IMG/VR virus record: IMGVR_UViG_3300027704_000114
Coordinates: 1 to 29,314 of that record
Reading direction: 5' to 3' (one strand)
DNA from: a virus
DNA: 29,314 nucleotides
In this document: positions 11,817-24,881 of the stretch, one piece after another
Layout: the number at the start of each line of letters is the position of its first letter
Numbering within the stretch: the stretch's first letter is position 1
Program-made: the position numbers and the translations under genes
Notes under the pieces: model-generated
Databases searched by the model: none
What the model saw: the letters and a program-made list of their open reading frames with translations, nothing else
Told to the model about the DNA's origin: nothing

Positions 11817-13622
11817 TTACTCTCTTATACCTTTTACGGTTACTGTTGTATCGTCAGTTTTTATTTCTATTAAATCATTTAACTTACCAGCAATATCAGC
11901 ATCCTCACTTCTAGCATATATTTTTATAGTAGTTCCTGTAGCTATTGCATTAACAGATACATTAGAAAACGTAACATTACCAGTAGCATAATCTACTTCA
12001 CCAACATTTGCATTAAGTATTGTTAATGCTGATGTATTAGCTACAACAATTTGAATTGCTCCATCTCCGTCATCTCTAAAAGATGCTCCACTAGTGCTGT
12101 TAAATGTAAATAGACCAGACTCAATAGCTGGTTCTGAATATGGTAACGAAGCACCTTGAGCAACTGTCACAGGATTATCTGGTCTTAAAGGATTAAAGAA
12201 TGAAACTGTATTAGTAAATCCTTGATTTAATATTGGGTTAATTTCTTTTATCATTCTTGTTTGTATACTATTACTTAGAATAGATGTATCACTTTCATTA
12301 ATTTTTTCTATAAGTTTACTTTGTCTAAATGTTTTATTAAACTTACCAAGATTGTTTGTATTAAATGTTGTTATTGCTGATTTAACAATTGTTTGAACAC
12401 CATTTTGATTACTTGATGTTTCATTCATATTATATGTTACTTTACAATCAACTTCTATTCTTAAAAATGTTGGGTCTTGCATAATTGGTTCTATAGTCAA
12501 CGGAGATTTAGGACCAATAAAATCTATTATTTGTTGCTTTTGAAAACTAGGTAATGTATCATATGTATTACTTGATGCAACCATAACTACTTTACCAAAT
12601 TGAGGTGGGGAGGCTTCATCACCACCATAAACATTCATATCGGTTATGTCACCAAATTCATTTTGTACTAATGTTTTATAATCATTAGCTGTAACAGCTC
12701 TCTCTTGTGTTGTTAAAGCACGAGGCGCTGCAAACTTAATATCGTCTAATGATTGATATTCTTGACCACCGGAAGCTCTCTCAACAACAGTTGCAGCAAC
12801 TGTACTATATCCTGATATAGCACCTGCACTTGTAAATGCATTAGCACCATCTGGTTCTGCACCACTCGATACTCTATAAGTAGCTTCAACTATATTACCA
12901 TCTGTTAACTTTCTTCCAAACGTATCGTTACCAAATACTAATTCATAGCTACCATTTGCAGCTGCTTGCACAAAGAATACATTAGATGTACTTCCGACAT
13001 CAAATAATGTATTAGCTCTTGTCCATTCTGTATTTGTTGTATTAGTATTAGATGTTCTAACACTTACTGATATACTTGTTGTATCCACATCATAGTTACT
13101 AATATAGAAAGTATTAGATGTACTACTTGTTTCAAAATATTCTGTTATAATTTCACCTTCATATAAAGCAACATTAGCTGCAAGATAACTATTGTTAGAA
13201 TATACAGATATAGCAGAGTTAGTTGAAAATGTATATGTGTTGTCCCCAACTGTTGATGTAAATTTAGTTAGCCTTGGTATGTCAATACTATGAGGGCTAT
13301 CACCTGGTGTAATTTGTACGTTAGCATATGCTACTGAACTTCTATATGAAGTTGGTAGATAATTTAATTTCTTTGCATGAGAATAAACACTATCTCTAAC
13401 TTGAGCACTATCTAAAAACATTTCAGATGCTACGTGATTTAAGTACATATTATTATAATATGTGTTGTATGAAAGCACGTCTAACATTACATTCATATTG
13501 GAGCCATCAAAATTATAATCATTAAAATATGATTGTGATGACAAGTATGCTTTTAAGTTTGATTTAATTGAATCAAACTCCAAATTGGCTACTATAAATT
13601 CAGCATTGGATGCGGTAGGCAT
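11817..13622 (-). CDS. gp6: Baseplate wedge protein gp6
   Basis: The protein has 601 aa (T4 gp6: 660). N-terminal signature 'IVANLEFDSIKSNLKAYLSS' with 'MNVMLDVLSYNTYYNNMYLN' and 'EMFLDSAQVRDSVYSHAKKL' then 'YLPTSYRSS' is characteristic of gp6 and of the wider baseplate J family. The central region has 'LTTQERAVTANDYKTLVQNE' (about residues 298-317), also a J-type hallmark. gp6 dimers form the continuous ring that links the six wedges round the hub. It overlaps the gp25 stop by one base (ATG read from 13622) and its stop is 7 nt before gp7-like. Normal length, no lesions seen. Confidence 0.94.
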   Translation of the reverse strand: MPTASNAEFIVANLEFDSIKSNLKAYLSSQSYFNDYNFDGSNMNVMLDVLSYNTYYNNMYLNHVASEMFLDSAQVRDSVYSHAKKLNYLPTSYRSSVAYANVQITPGDSPHSIDIPRLTKFTSTVGDNTYTFSTNSAISVYSNNSYLAANVALYEGEIITEYFETSSTSNTFYISNYDVDTTSISVSVRTSNTNTTNTEWTRANTLFDVGSTSNVFFVQAAANGSYELVFGNDTFGRKLTDGNIVEATYRVSSGAEPDGANAFTSAGAISGYSTVAATVVERASGGQEYQSLDDIKFAAPRALTTQERAVTANDYKTLVQNEFGDITDMNVYGGDEASPPQFGKVVMVASSNTYDTLPSFQKQQIIDFIGPKSPLTIEPIMQDPTFLRIEVDCKVTYNMNETSSNQNGVQTIVKSAITTFNTNNLGKFNKTFRQSKLIEKINESDTSILSNSIQTRMIKEINPILNQGFTNTVSFFNPLRPDNPVTVAQGASLPYSEPAIESGLFTFNSTSGASFRDDGDGAIQIVVANTSALTILNANVGEVDYATGNVTFSNVSVNAIATGTTIKIYARSEDADIAGKLNDLIEIKTDDTTVTVKGIRE

Positions 13623-14041
13623 TATCTTGTCCTCTCTAATATTATGTCTAGTGTTTCTGGTGTTGTTGTATTTATTATTCTAAAAGTTATTTGAAATGAT
13701 AGTGTATTGTGATCTGGATTTCCACCAACATCCACTTTCATTAATTCTGCTCTTGGCTCATGGTTGTCAAATACTTCTTCTACCATCTTTTTAGCTCTAA
13801 GTTCTAATCCAGGTGTATAGTTTTCAAACAACAATCCTTGTAATCCTGATCCTATTTCAGGTTGAAAGGGTCTCTCATACCGATTAGTTAACAATAAATT
13901 TCTTATAGATTGCTTAACAGCCTCTGCATTTGTCTTTCTATTAAGCTGACCAGTAACAGAATTTCTTGAAAAATCTGTAAAGAAATCTGAGTATACTACT
14001 TTTTTTATACTATGATCAGTTAATGTTTGTATTTTTGACAT
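13622..14041 (-). CDS. gp25: Baseplate wedge protein gp25
   Basis: The protein has 139 aa (T4 gp25: 132). It belongs to the gpW/gp25-like family: 'DFSRNSVTGQLNRKTNAEAV' near residues 23-42, 'QSIRNLLLTNRYERPFQPEI' near 44-63, 'GSGLQGLLFEN' and the invariant EPR motif at residues 95-97 ('FDNHEPRAELMKV'). gp25 is the sheath-initiating wedge subunit; its fold resembles a lysozyme but has no enzyme activity. It lies after a 32-bp gap containing a late-promoter-like CATAAATA, the longest non-coding gap within this operon, and is coupled to gp6. The ribosome site is weak (TAGG, about 8 nt before ATG). Confidence 0.95.
   Translation of the reverse strand: MSKIQTLTDHSIKKVVYSDFFTDFSRNSVTGQLNRKTNAEAVKQSIRNLLLTNRYERPFQPEIGSGLQGLLFENYTPGLELRAKKMVEEVFDNHEPRAELMKVDVGGNPDHNTLSFQITFRIINTTTPETLDIILERTR
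13669..13676 (-). promoter_or_regulatory. Possible late promoter upstream of gp6 (AATAAATA)
   Basis: The minus strand reads AATAAATA inside the 3' end of gp25, 47 nt before the gp6 ATG. It fits the NATAAATA core but also encodes gp25 residues (RIINTTT), so it may be coincidental. Confidence 0.25.
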
Positions 14042-14073: not shown

Positions 14074-15084
14074 CTAAACAGAAGCACTTGTTGCTAATCC
14101 TGTAGATACATTTGTTGTGGTTGATTGAGTATTTCTACTAGCAATTTTTTCTTCTAGTGTTAATAGAATTGTTTCTGGTGTAGGTGTTCCAAGTGTACCG
14201 TTTATTAACTCTGCAAAAACCGGATCCTCAACTTCTCCTTTTATTTTAGCTAATGCTTCTTTAGTTGCTCCGTATACTGGAGGTACTATATCATTACTTA
14301 ATAAACCTCCTAAAGCAAACCCAGGCGCTTCAAATGTTCCTAATGCAGCAGCTGCTGCTTGAGCTCTTGCTGCTGATTGTGCTATCTTAGCTGGTGCTCC
14401 AGAATTAATCACTATTTGTATTGCGTTACCAAGTTTATCAAAGCCCTGTTTAATTTGTTTGTTACCTAAGTTTTTAAATGGATTTGCAAGACCACCCGAC
14501 TCACCTTCTGGTAAACCAGTTTGTAACTTTCCGGTCATAAATTCAGCACCAGGACCAATGTCTGGTAATAGAGTTCCACATCCACCTATGGGTGGTATTG
14601 CTAATAAACCTGATACACCTTTTAACATTGAACCCATATCAAATCCTCCTCCTAATGATATACCAAAATCAAGTGATGGTAAACTTATATTAGGTAAATT
14701 TATATCAGGAAGATCAATATCTAAATCAAATGATGGAAGATTAAATCCTGGTGGTTTAATATCTAATCCATCCATAAGACCCTGTAAGCCAGATAAGACA
14801 GCTCCAGTTGGATTAGATATAGCTGACATCATTAAGCTAGCCACTGAAATTAAATTAGGACTGAAGTCTAAATTACAACCATCAGATAATTCAACTTGTT
14901 CTATTACAGCTGTAGTTTTTTCTTTTACTGTACTAACATAATCAGATACAGATAGAGCTGTTGGATCAAGAGCAGATATAACAGAAGATGCATCAAGTTG
15001 TGCTGTTATTTTATCTACTAGCTCTGTTGATCTACCAACATCATCTAATTGTTTCTGTTGTGCTAATTCTAATCCTGACGCCAT
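14074..15084 (-). CDS. Unknown baseplate-operon protein with LP pentapeptide repeats
   Basis: The protein has 336 aa and no family that I recognise. The N-terminal ~100 residues look helical ('LELAQQKQLDD', 'SVSDYVSTVKEKTTAVIEQV', 'LISVASLMMSAISNPTGA'). Residues about 110-145 hold a striking low-complexity stretch with Leu-Pro every five residues (P117, P126, P131, P136: 'LPDINLPNISLPSLDF'), then a Gly-rich segment ('GISLGGGFDMGSML') and 'IPPIGGCGTLLPDIGPG'. An Ala-rich helix follows (about 230-255). It lies between gp5 and gp25; in T4 the spike-tip PAAR protein gp5.4 follows gene 5, but this protein is three times longer and shows no PAAR pattern. A hub or spike-associated role is inference from place only. 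A GAGG ribosome site precedes the ATG. Confidence 0.8.
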   Translation of the reverse strand: MASGLELAQQKQLDDVGRSTELVDKITAQLDASSVISALDPTALSVSDYVSTVKEKTTAVIEQVELSDGCNLDFSPNLISVASLMMSAISNPTGAVLSGLQGLMDGLDIKPPGFNLPSFDLDIDLPDINLPNISLPSLDFGISLGGGFDMGSMLKGVSGLLAIPPIGGCGTLLPDIGPGAEFMTGKLQTGLPEGESGGLANPFKNLGNKQIKQGFDKLGNAIQIVINSGAPAKIAQSAARAQAAAAALGTFEAPGFALGGLLSNDIVPPVYGATKEALAKIKGEVEDPVFAELINGTLGTPTPETILLTLEEKIASRNTQSTTTNVSTGLATSASV

Positions 15085-15092
15085 TGTTACCT

Positions 15093-16670
15093 CTAATTTA
15101 AGTTAATTGTTCCGCCATCAATATCAACTTCAGTTGAACCATCAACATCAACTAAAACTCCTTTAATATTTACTAATGTTGGTATTTTTGCAGGTGAAGT
15201 ATCAGTATCTGCACCACCCGTACCTACAGTGAAAGATGTAGGTGCATCAATTTTTACAGATGTACCAGCATTTACATCAAAAGTAGAAGATGTGTTTGCT
15301 CTAAAGTGTGAATCTGTTTGTATATTAACATTACTGGTAGCTAATACACTAAAATTATTATCTGTTATAACTGTATGATTTAATAATGTTGTAGTGTCTG
15401 ATGTTCCTTCTGTAGTCTTAATACTATTTTCTTGTACCATTACAATTTCATCTTTACCAATTACCTGATTATAATAACCTCTAATATCTTCAACGTGATC
15501 ACCTATTATTGTTTCTATTCTATCATTGTTAACTAACAGACTTTGATCTTTTGAAATATTAGTAGCATGATGTGATAGGTACTCTTCATAAACAGTACCC
15601 CCTACTTTTGTAGTCATGTCGCCTCTAACATTAAGATTAAAATCACCATCTGTTTCTATAAACATATTACCACCTTTAGCACCAGGACCTGTGTCACCGT
15701 CTGCTTGTACCAATAGTCTAACATCAGAACCTTGTACAGTAATACTTACATTACCTTTAACAACCATATTCTTATCATGCATAACCATTTCATAGTCATC
15801 ACCAACAATTTTTGTTACTCTTGTTCCGTTTGGTTGTATCTCATAGAATGTACCAGCTGTATGATACTGTGCTATTCTTTCAGCCTTAGGTGAATCATCT
15901 ACTTCAAATACATGTCCTGACTCAGTTACTTTAACGTGGTTCAAAGGATAGATAGACTCTTCTCCAAATTCAGGAGTCCCTCCATAAGTCACTGATGATT
16001 TTTCACCTTCATCTTTACCACCGTATCTTGGATTAGGCTCGTTCCATGTTCTTCTACTATAATATGTTTCGGAGTTATACCCTGGTGGTGGTCCATCTTT
16101 AACCGTTGATGCCTCACCATCTTTTTTACCTGGGTCACTTTCTACACCAGGAGGTCCAGCTTTTGGTATCTTTAATACTCTATGCTTTTTCTTATGAGCT
16201 AATATATTTTCACCAGCTCTTACACTTGGTGCTTCGATAGTACTAGCTCTTATTGCATCACCTCTAGCTAATCTATTAACATCAGACTCACCTGGTATTT
16301 CTATTTTAGGATAAACTTTATTAGGATCATTAAACCCTAGTTCATTATAAGCCTCTGGAGCTCCAGCTAATGTACCCATAATCATAGGTTGCTGCATTTG
16401 TTTACCATCAACAAAGAAACCAAATACCCATGTTCCTTCAACAGGGCCAGTAGGACTTTCACCTATACCACTAATGGATGCACTTGTATATGGCATGATA
16501 GGTGTTGCCCAAGGAAGGTCTACTGTTGGTATCTTAGCTCTATCTTCTGTGTGAATGCCAAATGCTCTTATACGTACTCTTCCCATCTTTAAAGGATCTT
16601 GTCTATCTTCTACTACTCCAAAAAAATATTGGAAGTTTTTAAAATACTCTGCTGAATATACGGTTGACAT
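15093..16670 (-). CDS. gp5: Baseplate hub/spike protein gp5 without lysozyme domain
   Basis: The protein has 525 aa. Residues 1-110 are the gp5/VgrG OB-fold ('FFGVVEDRQDPLKMGRVRIR', 'LPWATPIMPYTSAS', 'GTWVFGFFVDGKQMQQPMIM'). Residues about 120-240 are a Lys/Gly/Pro-rich linker. From 'YPLNHVKVTESGHVFEVDDS' (about 241-260) a gp5C-type triple beta-helix follows, with alternating short strands ('IVGDDYEMVMHDKNMVVKGN'), ending 'VDIDGGTINLN'. T4 gp5 (575 aa) carries a lysozyme domain between the OB-fold and the needle; no lysozyme-like segment is present here, only the linker. The protein should be the trimeric membrane-piercing spike below the gp27 hub. Its ATG overlaps the stop of the gp27-like gene (TAATG). 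Confidence 0.93.
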   Translation of the reverse strand: MSTVYSAEYFKNFQYFFGVVEDRQDPLKMGRVRIRAFGIHTEDRAKIPTVDLPWATPIMPYTSASISGIGESPTGPVEGTWVFGFFVDGKQMQQPMIMGTLAGAPEAYNELGFNDPNKVYPKIEIPGESDVNRLARGDAIRASTIEAPSVRAGENILAHKKKHRVLKIPKAGPPGVESDPGKKDGEASTVKDGPPPGYNSETYYSRRTWNEPNPRYGGKDEGEKSSVTYGGTPEFGEESIYPLNHVKVTESGHVFEVDDSPKAERIAQYHTAGTFYEIQPNGTRVTKIVGDDYEMVMHDKNMVVKGNVSITVQGSDVRLLVQADGDTGPGAKGGNMFIETDGDFNLNVRGDMTTKVGGTVYEEYLSHHATNISKDQSLLVNNDRIETIIGDHVEDIRGYYNQVIGKDEIVMVQENSIKTTEGTSDTTTLLNHTVITDNNFSVLATSNVNIQTDSHFRANTSSTFDVNAGTSVKIDAPTSFTVGTGGADTDTSPAKIPTLVNIKGVLVDVDGSTEVDIDGGTINLN

Positions 16671-18022
16671 TATACCCTCTCACTGTGTTTAAAATCTAAT
16701 CCGTCTTTTACAACTGTTAGTTTTGTATTAAATAACATTTTGTCATATATGTGTTCAACTTTAGTAACATACCAATTACCACTATACATACTACCTTGGT
16801 TTTTTCTTTCAGGAGCTCCTGCCTCTTTTAAATTTAGTTGTATTATAGTACCAGCTACCAAACTACTATCACCATATATTGTTACTTGCATACTATAATG
16901 ACCTAACATTTGCATATAAGATTTTCTTTTACTTTGTATACCAGGTAGGTTTTCATTATATACACCTTTTGTTGTATCTACTGCAATAGATGTTTCAATA
17001 GGATTTGAACCAAACATATCAAAGAATGCTGATGACATATTAAAATGTTCACCTAATGTATTAAAATTATCTCTTTCTTTCATCATATCAAAATTTGTTA
17101 TTGAATAACTTTTTTTGTTAAAATCTATAGCTGTTACCTTTTGCGCAAACTCTCCATTTTGTATACCCTGCATAGTATTGTTTATTGCCATTGGAGTCAT
17201 AGATTTTATATTTCTATAGAATATTTTATCGTTTTGGGGAAGTGTTGCAACATCATCATCATATGTATATGGTTCTGTTTTAATATTATCAGACCATTTT
17301 TCTATATTTTTAAAATGGAATGCATCTTCACCTTCATAGAAAGTATAGAATGAACCTGGAAATTCTGATCCACCAAACGATCTAACTGCTAAAAAATGTA
17401 ATGCTTTAAATGGTGTCAGGCCTGGTATTATAAAATTTTGTATTCCTACTGACTCATCTATAACAATAGGTTTTTCTTTCCATATTGGTTGACCATCTTT
17501 ATTAGCTGTCTTTAATTGTTTATATTTCTCACTGCCAGCTATAAAATTATTAAAAATATTTTTAGCAATATCAGATGTTGAACCACTAAACGATTGGTTT
17601 ACAACCATTTGATCGTTAATTAATTTTTCTTTTGATACACAATTTAATACCATACTAGTAGAAAGACCTCTAGCGTCTTTTTTAACAGGACTATAACCAG
17701 AGACATAAAACAAATTTTCTATAATTTTTTTAGTAGGTGTTTGGAATTTTATTAATATAAACTCTTCACCCTGTAACCCCTTGGTGCCAAACTCTTCAAA
17801 AATTAATTTAGATTCTGTTATGTGTATACTCAATGTCATGTAAGGATTAAATACAGACTGGGTTATATTAATGTTAGTATACATATCATTTAAATCTACT
17901 AAACTTCTAAATTGGACACCCTCTTTATCATCATCAATAAGTTTGCCCATAAACATAGATAACTCAGCACTACCTGAGTTGAAAAGCATTTTATTTTCGT
18001 CGAGTTCTTTTACTAAGGACAT
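16670..18022 (-). CDS. gp27: Baseplate hub protein, gp27-like
   Basis: The protein has 450 aa (T4 gp27: 391). Features of the gp27/VgrG hub fold: an N-terminal beta domain ('AELSMFMGKLIDDDKEG', 'NINITQSVFNPYMTLSIHI'), 'IENLFYVSGYSPVKKDARGL', a central 'LTPFKALHFLAVRSFGG' with 'FYTFYEGEDAFHFKNIEKW' (about residues 205-245; T4 has '[20 protein letters not shown]'), and a C-terminal 'MLGHYSMQVTIYGDSSLVAG' with 'NWYVTKVEHIYDKMLFNTKL' matching gp27 '[20 protein letters not shown]'. It sits directly upstream of gp5, its partner in the hub. In T4 gene 27 lies elsewhere, next to 51 and 28. Comparison is from memory, so remote-homology confirmation would be useful. Confidence 0.75.
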   Translation of the reverse strand: MSLVKELDENKMLFNSGSAELSMFMGKLIDDDKEGVQFRSLVDLNDMYTNINITQSVFNPYMTLSIHITESKLIFEEFGTKGLQGEEFILIKFQTPTKKIIENLFYVSGYSPVKKDARGLSTSMVLNCVSKEKLINDQMVVNQSFSGSTSDIAKNIFNNFIAGSEKYKQLKTANKDGQPIWKEKPIVIDESVGIQNFIIPGLTPFKALHFLAVRSFGGSEFPGSFYTFYEGEDAFHFKNIEKWSDNIKTEPYTYDDDVATLPQNDKIFYRNIKSMTPMAINNTMQGIQNGEFAQKVTAIDFNKKSYSITNFDMMKERDNFNTLGEHFNMSSAFFDMFGSNPIETSIAVDTTKGVYNENLPGIQSKRKSYMQMLGHYSMQVTIYGDSSLVAGTIIQLNLKEAGAPERKNQGSMYSGNWYVTKVEHIYDKMLFNTKLTVVKDGLDFKHSERV

Positions 18023-19632: not shown

Positions 19633-20073
19633 ATGAGCTATAAAGGTAAATTTACCCCCAACAACCCTTCTAAGTATAAGGGTAATCCCACTAACATTAT
19701 TTATAGGAGTTTGTGGGAGCGTAAGCTTATGTCCTATTTAGACAAACATTCAGACGTGATCCTGTGGTCAAGCGAAGAATTTTGTATTGCCTACAGAAGT
19801 CCTATTGATGGTAAGGTCCATAGATACTTTCCAGACTTCTGGGTAAAGAAGAAGAACAGAGATGGAAAGATAAATATAGCTGTATTAGAAGTTAAACCAA
19901 AAGCTCAATGTAAGCCTCCACTTATGGAGTTACGTAAAAAACATCCAAGGCGTTTTATCAATCAAGTAAAGACGTATGGTATCAATGAAGCTAAATGGAA
20001 AGCTGCTGATAATTTTTGTAAGGATAGAAATTGGGACTTTAAACTTATAACTGAAGATAACTTAGGTGTGTAA
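19633..20073 (+). CDS. gp4: Head completion protein gp4 (PD-(D/E)XK nuclease-like)
   Basis: The protein has 146 aa (T4 gp4, also called 50/65: 150 aa). Signature 'NPSKYKGNPTNIIYRSLWER' (11-30), 'WSSEEFCIAYRSPIDGKVHR' (45-64), 'YFPDFWV' with D68, and 'VLEVKPKAQ' with E86 and K88. This is the TnsA/PD-(D/E)XK-type nuclease core of the T4 head-completion family, with likely metal ligands D68 and E86 and K88 next to them. gp4 is needed to finish DNA-filled heads before tail joining. First gene of the rightward operon; its stop overlaps the next ATG (TAATG). In T4 gene 4 also lies beside 53, so this neighbourhood is partly conserved. Confidence 0.93.
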   Translation: MSYKGKFTPNNPSKYKGNPTNIIYRSLWERKLMSYLDKHSDVILWSSEEFCIAYRSPIDGKVHRYFPDFWVKKKNRDGKINIAVLEVKPKAQCKPPLMELRKKHPRRFINQVKTYGINEAKWKAADNFCKDRNWDFKLITEDNLGV

Positions 20074-22736: not shown

Positions 22737-24881
22737 ATGGCTACCACATCCGGAACATCTGCTATTGATAGTTTACATAACACAATAGATAAATTTAGAT
22801 CTGAAAGCACTAATAACTTTAGTGAAATGATTAGTGGCCAACATAAGTTAATTGATGTTAGTACAGCTCAATTTGATCTTCTTAAAGATTCACAAGATAA
22901 AGCATACGAAGAATCAAGAAATTCATTAAAGAAACCAGCTATTGCAGCACTTGCTACAAGTGGTGCTGCAGGTGTTGCAGGTAAGGCTAAACCAAAAGGT
23001 GGTAAAGAAAAAAAAGGGGGTATATTTAGCAAAGCACTTGGTAGTCTTGGGGCACTGGCAGGTATAGGGATTTCATTAGCAGGGCTTGGTGCTTTATTTG
23101 CAGGTGGTGGTTATCTTATAAAACAACTTTCTGAATTTGATGGTGCGGCTGTCAAAAAAAATATATTATTATTATTGTCTATTCCATCATCTATTCCAGG
23201 TGATAGTACTCCTGAAAAAGCTCTACTTGTACTTGGTACTGCTGGAACTTTAGGAGTAATTGCTGCAGGGTTAATAGCTTTTTCAGCTGGTGCTTTTTTT
23301 GTAGGTGGGGTTCATAAATTATTTGGTGGTGAATGGGTTCAAGATACTGTAGATGGTGTAACTGCATTAGTAGGTATGTTAGATATTACAACTGGTAAAG
23401 ATTTACTTATACAATTGGCTAATATATTTGCTAGTACTGGTGCACTTATTGGAATTGGAATAGGTCTTGGAACATTTGCTTTAGGCAAAGGGCTTATAAG
23501 TGCCGTCAATTTCTTTACTAAGAATAAAGGATTTGCCGAAAAAACAAAAGAAGAGGTGGAAGTCTTATTGGGTATTGGATCTGGTAGTGAGTTTGGTGAA
23601 GGTTTTTGGGCTAAATTAGGAAGAATATTTGGGGCTACTGGTTCATTAGGTTTGATTGGTGCAGGTCTTGCAGTATATTCTGTTGGAAAGGCAGCTGCTA
23701 AAGGTGCTGAATGGTTTGCCGGGAATACAGGATTTGCCCAAAAAGTAAAAGATGAGGTACAAGTATTACTAGGAATTGGTAAAGGGCAAGCTGCGGATTT
23801 TGGATGGTTCCCCGTCAAGATGGCTTTTCTATTAGGTGGTCTTCTCTTATTCTCAATTGGTAAAGGTGTAGGGAGTTTAGTAGATGTTGCATCTACTACT
23901 ATAACAAAAGGTATTAATTGGTGGACAGATGATAACCAAAAAGATTTTGCGACAAAGATTAAATCCCAAGTTAAAACATTATTATCTATACCAAATTTAC
24001 CAGGAGCGGCAGGTGCAAATCTTGTAGACTTTGGTATAACTATGGGTGCAATATTAGGTGGTCTTCTTGCATTCTCGTTAGGTTTAGGTGTGGTAGGTAT
24101 AACTTCTGCTGCAGCTGAAGGATTATCTTTATGGACAACAGATACTGGTATGGCTGACAATGTATATAATAATGTTGAAAAATTACTGTCAGTTACAGAT
24201 TTGGCTGATGGGAAAGACATTGGGAGCTTCCTAGGAATTATGGCATCACTTTCTGTAGGGTTGCTTGCATTTGGTGGTACTACTGCTTTTGCTTCATTAG
24301 GATTAGCAATAGGTAGAATATTTACTTTTTTCACTGGAGAAAAATCTCCTTTTACACAAATAGAAATAATTGCTGAAAATGCTGAAAAATTAGATAAAGG
24401 TGCTAAAGCTATTGATTCAATCCAAGATGCTTTAAGAAAATTTAGTGATTTGAATTTCAAAGGTAGCAAAATTGGTATGGAAGACTTTGCAGAAGATTTA
24501 ATAAAATCTGTTCCTATTATAGAAAAAGCAGTAGGAGGTGGTAAAATAGGAGCATATTGGTCAACATTGCTTCCTGGTACACAAAATTATGAATTTAAAG
24601 GTCTTGCTAATCCTGATATTGGATTTGAACAAGCGGCTATAAATATTACAATACTTAAACGAGCACTTGCAGGTATTGGAGATGTGAACATGGGAGCTGT
24701 CGAAAAAGATAGTGGGGGAGGAGGCTCTGTAATTAATAATTATAATAGTGTCTCTAACAATGGTTATAGTCAAGGCAATGCTGGTGGTAATGACAGTGGT
24801 GTTAGACTAACCGTAACTCCAACAATTGCAAGCCAAACAAAAGGTGATAGGTATGATCTATGGGGCGTAAATATGGATTAA
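22737..24881 (+). CDS. Tail tape measure protein built from ~68-aa repeats
   Basis: The protein has 714 aa. The N-terminal 65 residues are helical/coiled ('DSLHNTIDKFRSESTNNFSE', 'STAQFDLLKDSQDKAYEESR'), then a Lys/Gly linker (80-95), then a long hydrophobic, Gly/Ala-rich region (95-540). A motif of the form '[DEN].V..LL.I' recurs near residues 141, 206, 272, 339, 410, 478 and 547, i.e. every 65-71 residues, each followed by 'GGLLAFS.G'-type helices and 'W.T.DxGFA'-type linkers. This repeat-plus-membrane-helix design is typical of tape measure proteins, which set tail length and enter the host envelope. It is the functional counterpart of T4 gp29 (590 aa). The C-terminus (655-685) is Gly/Asn-rich. 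It directly follows the chaperone-like 26/51 pair. Confidence 0.85.
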   Translation: MATTSGTSAIDSLHNTIDKFRSESTNNFSEMISGQHKLIDVSTAQFDLLKDSQDKAYEESRNSLKKPAIAALATSGAAGVAGKAKPKGGKEKKGGIFSKALGSLGALAGIGISLAGLGALFAGGGYLIKQLSEFDGAAVKKNILLLLSIPSSIPGDSTPEKALLVLGTAGTLGVIAAGLIAFSAGAFFVGGVHKLFGGEWVQDTVDGVTALVGMLDITTGKDLLIQLANIFASTGALIGIGIGLGTFALGKGLISAVNFFTKNKGFAEKTKEEVEVLLGIGSGSEFGEGFWAKLGRIFGATGSLGLIGAGLAVYSVGKAAAKGAEWFAGNTGFAQKVKDEVQVLLGIGKGQAADFGWFPVKMAFLLGGLLLFSIGKGVGSLVDVASTTITKGINWWTDDNQKDFATKIKSQVKTLLSIPNLPGAAGANLVDFGITMGAILGGLLAFSLGLGVVGITSAAAEGLSLWTTDTGMADNVYNNVEKLLSVTDLADGKDIGSFLGIMASLSVGLLAFGGTTAFASLGLAIGRIFTFFTGEKSPFTQIEIIAENAEKLDKGAKAIDSIQDALRKFSDLNFKGSKIGMEDFAEDLIKSVPIIEKAVGGGKIGAYWSTLLPGTQNYEFKGLANPDIGFEQAAINITILKRALAGIGDVNMGAVEKDSGGGGSVINNYNSVSNNGYSQGNAGGNDSGVRLTVTPTIASQTKGDRYDLWGVNMD

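Follow-up and report, generated by a model that had tools for sequence, protein, structure and literature searches.

The stretch of DNA analysed here (the window) is an entire virus record of 29,314 bases, whose minus strand carries a hub operon in which the genes for a tail-tube-cap protein (phrog_230), gp53, a phrog_350 tail protein, gp5 and ORF336 follow one another, and which continues from ORF336 with gp25, gp6, a wedge protein (phrog_17744), gp8 and a 2140 aa protein without assigned function. The gp5 spike protein (15093..16670, minus strand; phrog_430, PF06714) ends in EVDIDGGTINLN; in Pfam searches its OB domain was matched, the match to the C-terminal trimerisation domain fell just below the cut-off, and a lysozyme domain gave no match. 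The phrog_350 tail protein ahead of it (16670..18022, minus strand; PHROGs match) is by position probably a gp27-like hub protein, and the phiM12 protein at this position is annotated with an HHpred match to gp27. The baseplate wedge subunit gp25 (13622..14041, minus strand) is assigned by phrog_261 (E 1.5e-39) and PF04965. The tail-tube-cap gene which opens the operon is preceded at about 87 nt by TATAAATA (19698-19705, minus strand), which resembles a T4 late promoter; this sequence was rejected as such a signal, its number in the window (5 observed, 7.6 expected) not being above chance. Elsewhere in the window, a Gly-rich ORF of 714 aa (22737-24881, plus strand), the second gene after a gp26-like hub gene and without PHROG match, is by its position possibly the tape measure protein.

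ORF336 itself (14074..15084, minus strand) encodes 336 aa from an ATG start which is preceded by AGAGGT, as read from the window sequence. It begins 8 nt behind the gp5 stop, exactly where the first-pass annotation had located it, and a gap of 32 nt separates it from gp25. Same-slot relatives and substitution rates identify it as a real, previously unnamed ORF. Compared with its relative in locus L002, dN is 0.038 at a dS of 0.32, while the corresponding values are 0.064 and 0.32 for gp5 and 0.059 and 0.37 for gp25. Since each of the four comparisons gave a dN well below dS, ORF336 is under purifying selection. Against the relatives in L003, L004 and L005 it diverges faster than gp25, with dN/dS of about 0.29, 0.26 and 0.51 compared to 0.11, 0.08 and 0.13. 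The encoded protein is of low complexity, rich in A, G, S, T, L and P and poor in aromatic residues, and contains two Cys and no His.

The search for homologues at the same locus, which had been proposed as a check, was productive. Scanning IMG/VR with ORF336 gave five loci, and extension through gp25 and gp5 scans, an iterated profile and further scans enlarged the family (designated A2) to 30 distinct sequences, two of which (L031 and L106) are contig-end fragments; complete members span 255-631 aa. Wherever both neighbours are readable in the IMG/VR loci, a family member occupies the slot between gp5 and gp25, and the distance between the gp5 end and the start of its gene is -7 to +23 nt in 24 of the 25 listed loci. 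The exception is L169 (173 nt), whose gp5 frame ends prematurely. When the genome collection was scanned by pattern for the close group of sequences (A6), 81 stretches matched a pattern, none of them encoding a relative. Loci were told apart by their gp5 end, gp25 or protein; near-copies therefore remain, and the counts are not independent. Of the 67 distinct rows in a gp25 tree, 23 belong to the family and group as a single clade (support 100/90), and hence the family loci represent one evolutionary association rather than many independent ones. Another 35 rows have PAAR and nine have neither PAAR nor a family member in reach, while no row combines a family member with an upstream PAAR. The nearest non-family row is phiM12, on a long branch.

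Database searches agreed with the earlier statement that no known family could be recognised: at E up to 1, PHROGs, Pfam and the phage collection gave no match for ORF336, nor did the PDB at E up to 10, and the best hit of a PDB profile search (E 0.17) was read as chance. Pfam detected neither a tail lysozyme nor a peptidase domain in it. Its relatives match apolipoprotein, baculovirus PEP and other models (best E 7e-6), which in our judgement is amphipathic-helix noise. Literature queries, which were not worded for the slot protein, found no description of it by title or abstract start. The family is undescribed, and Pfam, PHROGs and the phage collection do not contain it.

Several regions can be delimited along ORF336. 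The N-terminal part (aa 1-110; 14755..15084) had been called a helical head, and helices are indeed modelled at 4-15, 20-38, 46-90 and 94-106, but they are weakly predicted (mean pLDDT of ten-residue blocks 44-67), so that the head remains putative. It is followed by the Leu-Pro array (aa 116-140; 14665..14739), including LPDINLPNISLPSLDF at aa 125-140, which lies inside a variable linker. Leu-Pro pairs start at positions 116, 125, 130 and 135, i.e. with spacings of 9, 5 and 5; the claimed proline at every fifth residue is therefore correct for P126, P131 and P136, but not for P117, which precedes them by nine residues. The array is more than a chance product of composition: three Leu-Pro pairs at period five were reached in 30 of 200,000 shuffles of ORF336, and among 871 distinct forward-strand ORFs of at least 100 aa in the fetched loci only five contain such a triple, all of them ORF336 copies or relatives. 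Leu-Pro at period five is also found in the pentapeptide stretches of the eukaryotic protein periaxin, to which the array of ORF336 may bear a resemblance.

Only five of the 30 distinct family members carry the period-5 run, namely those closest to the window (one of the 25 without it, L031, being a C-terminal fragment). Hence, the array is a small variable linker and a side feature rather than the defining part of the family. Where the linker can be delimited between the PPG-like and GG-FD-like motifs (18 of 30 members), it measures 16-47 aa. The DNA of L003 contains a 27-nt tandem near-repeat and that of L005 contains TTACCTAATATAAGT twice; the run thus looks as if it arose by tandem DNA duplication. 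The suggestion that it forms a beta-solenoid or a rigid rod extending the spike is not borne out by its narrow distribution, the variability of the linker, this appearance of duplication and a pLDDT of 32-36 for the ten-residue blocks of the array. The array comprises just three period-5 units, has no Pfam match and is without modelled structure, although pLDDT alone excludes nothing.

Downstream of the linker lies a GGFD stretch followed by C169-GTLLPDI (aa 146-176; 14557..14649), and the GGCGTLL segment reported earlier is present at aa 167-173. The motif C-x(2,6)-[ILVMF]-P-[ND]-[IVLMF], picked after inspecting the sequences, occurs in 10 of 30 A2 members, in 26 of 31 members of a second slot family, A3, and in one of 482 other forward-strand ORFs of at least 200 aa, this single outside match (L044) being a slot protein as well. 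Next comes a conserved, hairpin-like motif NPFK..GNK.IK..FD..GN (aa 199-232; 14389..14490), for which strands at 209-215 and 221-227 are modelled with low confidence and in which K212, D216, G219 and G229 are invariant in all 23 aligned A2 rows. The LPDI-like and hairpin-like motifs are more widely retained in the family than the Leu-Pro run. The C-terminal region from about aa 240 to 336 (14074..14367) is variable, with strong differences in length and sequence among relatives.

Structure prediction, proposed as a further check, gave little to build on. With 23 sequences, AlphaFold modelled ORF336 at a mean pLDDT of 43.5 and a pTM of 0.20, the hairpin appearing at 209-227. Disorder throughout had been named as evidence against a structural array, and the monomer comes close to it (248 of 336 residues below pLDDT 50), but an obligate trimer or a protein folding in a complex could look alike. 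The A3 relative L161, modelled with 29 sequences, reached pLDDT 57.1 and pTM 0.27, with N-terminal helices and a hairpin after the FDPC motif. Both models are too weak to be interpreted for or against a trimer or complex; the empty Foldseek result for either of them against BFVD (0 matches at E <= 0.001) is therefore expected.

A3, so far unnamed, is the second family found in the gp5-gp25 slot of uncultured T4-like phages (for example in L161 and L118). In tblastn searches of the phage collection, nothing was found for ORF336 or the A3 members L118, L052, L117 and L158, and L039 gave three matches at E 0.1-0.8. Comparing the profile of the close ORF336 group with that of a linking subfamily gave 97.8% over 211 columns, and the linking subfamily against the A3 profile (30 sequences) gave 89% over 74 N-terminal columns, compared to 0.2-0.4% for a control profile from another gp5-adjacent family. 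Direct comparisons are low, with 0.33% for the close group against A3 and 34% or 19% for all of A2 against A3, which is why the relationship rests on the intermediate. When the forward-strand ORFs were searched with the A3 model, the first matches outside A3 were to A2 members (E 4e-5 to 1e-2); in the other direction, L161, L128 and L158 of A3 were matched by the linking-subfamily model (E 9e-5 to 3e-3). A2 and A3 are thus probably homologous, through the intermediate subfamily and through helical sequence, and would form one wider superfamily, proposed here, whose members lie in the gp5-gp25 block. Within A3, the divergent slot proteins L123, L143 and L150, together with the copy L151, have the C-terminal motif FDDPSSPNYxxxxG in common, a pattern that the remaining forward-strand ORFs in the fetched loci lack.

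The slot had been called the PAAR position. In KVP40, Melnitz-3, HTVC008M, Mosig and BUCT-ZZ01, the gp5-gp25 block encodes a protein with a match to PF05488, with many other genes also lying within this block in HTVC008M and Mosig. In the ORF336 family, a PAAR profile (A7) built from 20 sequences found none in any of 16 records, the whole window record included, and PF05488 found none in 13. One of the PAAR-negative records comprises 128,318 bases with portal and major capsid genes; all family records but one are shorter than 55 kb, where absence may reflect fragments. The same profile scores in all eight comparison records, a control that is partly circular because four of them contributed to the profile and two more are near-copies of contributors; L088 (E 6e-34) and L150 (E 6e-5) do not belong to these. 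As L150 scored merely E 6e-5, the search may miss divergent copies. PAAR was likewise undetected in Vi01 and Sf-FP1, and the sole match in the phiM12 genome (E 0.0065) lies in a frame with a stop and is not credible. The designation as PAAR position is partly right, in that other lineages encode PAAR there and none was detected in the family records.

For T4, PMC4576200 describes the last gp5 strand as conserved and binding gp5.4, with a blunt, mostly hydrophobic tip, and gp5C and gp5.4 form a 3:1 complex according to PMC7600766. A gp5 C-terminus of the type hydrophobic-x-L-N is referred to as an xLN end in the following. From 72 loci listed, 51 were counted; the other 21, which lack gp25 and extend less than 2.5 kb past gp5, were dropped. 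The counted loci comprise 22 with an A2 member, an xLN end and no PAAR, and two with an A2 member, another gp5 end and no PAAR (L034, with an extension, and L169). All 15 counted xLN loci with A3 have PAAR, whereas none was detected in the two counted A3 loci with another gp5 end (L130 and L143). Ten counted loci have neither A2 nor A3, six of them with PAAR, and L007 (Mosig) was counted as lacking PAAR because its copy sits outside that locus. Among the dropped loci, seven combine A3 with a non-xLN gp5 and no PAAR in the short sequence (L118, L120, L122, L128, L129, L140 and L161), five combine A3, xLN and PAAR (L123, L125, L127, L133 and L135), two have A3 and xLN without PAAR in about 1.3 kb (L152 and L163), and L106 has a family member without PAAR within 0.7 kb. 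The ORF336 clade thus mostly retains the gp5 end that is paired with PAAR elsewhere, while PAAR itself is undetected.

Two other arrangements were observed at or behind the gp5 end. In the uncultured relatives L118, L120, L128, L129, L130, L161, L034 and L036, gp5 carries a C-terminal extension with RHxxGxDxxC...C in place of xLN, which may be a built-in apex domain; no PAAR is present in the sequence at hand of these loci, five of which end within 1.2 kb of gp5. Directly behind gp5 in L044 (2853-3959), a 368 aa protein starts PAAR-like (PF05488 E 9.5e-5, below the cut-off) and continues into a long extension.

Given its place in the operon, there is about an even chance that this clade of uncultured T4-like phages uses ORF336 as an accessory structural subunit of its baseplate hub or central spike. 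Gene order suggests that its N-terminal helices would dock on the gp5/gp27 hub, with the Leu-Pro stretch as a putative linker that is flexible or extended and tolerates changes in length, the conserved working part presumably made up of the LPDI and hairpin-like motifs, and the C-terminal tail left free to vary; the protein may then travel with the spike towards the periplasm. Besides the position behind gp5, the low dN relative to dS, the single clade on the gp25 tree and the link to A3 speak for this reading, and against it speak the low confidence of both models, the dependence of the A3 link on an intermediate and the faster evolution compared with gp25. As the probably homologous A3 proteins sit together with PAAR in 15 of 15 xLN loci, ORF336 is probably an older companion of gp5 kept in a PAAR-less lineage rather than a PAAR substitute made from the array.

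A weaker form of the first-pass idea, in which ORF336 takes over from PAAR in capping or lengthening the gp5 spike and the array need not be a solenoid, appears unlikely. The best argument for such a substitute tip is the combination of a retained gp5 end (xLN in 22 of 24 counted family loci), corresponding to the strand that binds gp5.4 in T4, with the failure to find PAAR in all 16 family records, the 128 kb record included, by a profile that scores in 8 of 8 comparison records. Divergent copies may have been missed, though, as the score of L150 indicates, and Vi01, Sf-FP1 and nine of the 67 gp25-tree rows imply that the absence of PAAR alone does not demand an ORF336. Because A3 proteins and PAAR occur side by side, the superfamily probably does not serve as the spike tip, and in L034, one of the family loci, gp5 ends in a different C-terminal extension. 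The metal site of PAAR consists of three His and one Cys, and ORF336, with no His and two Cys, does not offer such a site. It is hence doubtful that the family represents a new spike tip or sleeve which binds the PAAR-type blunt gp5 end and replaces the PAAR cone; if true, this would mean PAAR-independent arming of a T4-type spike whose gp5 lacks a tip domain of its own.

It is quite unlikely that ORF336 is absent from the virion and serves the gp5 spike or the hub as an assembly factor or chaperone encoded beside its client. The logic of the gene neighbourhood applies to this reading equally, and a helical, aromatic-poor, low-complexity sequence of variable length would be in keeping with it. 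Nevertheless, ORF336 matches no known chaperone or adaptor family and the matches of its relatives look like amphipathic-helix noise, while a C-terminus that changes fast and lengths reaching 631 aa better suit an exposed virion part. A tail-lumen or injected protein, i.e. a tape-measure-like hub plug released into the periplasm before the DNA, is regarded as very unlikely. It would fit the A, G, S, T, L, P-rich and aromatic-poor composition, and tape-measure profiles match two of 23 family members weakly (best E 7.9e-5), but ORF336 itself has no such match and the relatives match apolipoprotein and baculovirus PEP models too. In phiM12, the long-branched neighbour of the family on the gp25 tree, the slot protein has a C-terminal peptidase M15 domain, which would also suit a released protein, yet homology of this slot protein to ORF336 is unsupported (1.1-1.5% probability) and was rejected. 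Preference is accordingly given to the accessory hub or spike subunit.

In the usual descriptions, the tip of a contractile spike is either PAAR or a built-in apex domain. With a clade that mostly has a PAAR-associated gp5 end, no detected PAAR and an undescribed gp5 neighbour, the identity of the spike tip becomes a testable question, and a protein family, probably a wider superfamily, has been outlined that is absent from the collections searched (Pfam, PHROGs and the phage collection). Compared with known systems, ORF336 shares with the PAAR spike tip (T4 gp5.4 and the KVP40 PAAR protein) the location of its gene within the gp5-gp25 block of related phages. It differs in having no PAAR profile or PF05488 match, no His and no sign of a PAAR fold, and in its length of 336 compared to about 98 aa. 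The A3 proteins resemble ORF336 in lying in the same block, in N-terminal helices in register with the linking subfamily and in the C-x(2,6)-hP[ND]h motif, whereas they coexist with PAAR, have a Cys near the N-terminus and are without a period-5 Leu-Pro run. The slot protein of Sinorhizobium phage phiM12 (L018:4004-5566; 520 aa) occupies the same slot and, like ORF336, has a long N-terminal part without convincing family and no credible PAAR; it differs by its peptidase M15 domain (aa 421-502; PF08291, E 8e-19), so that the gp5-gp25 slot is able to carry a likely cell-wall enzyme.
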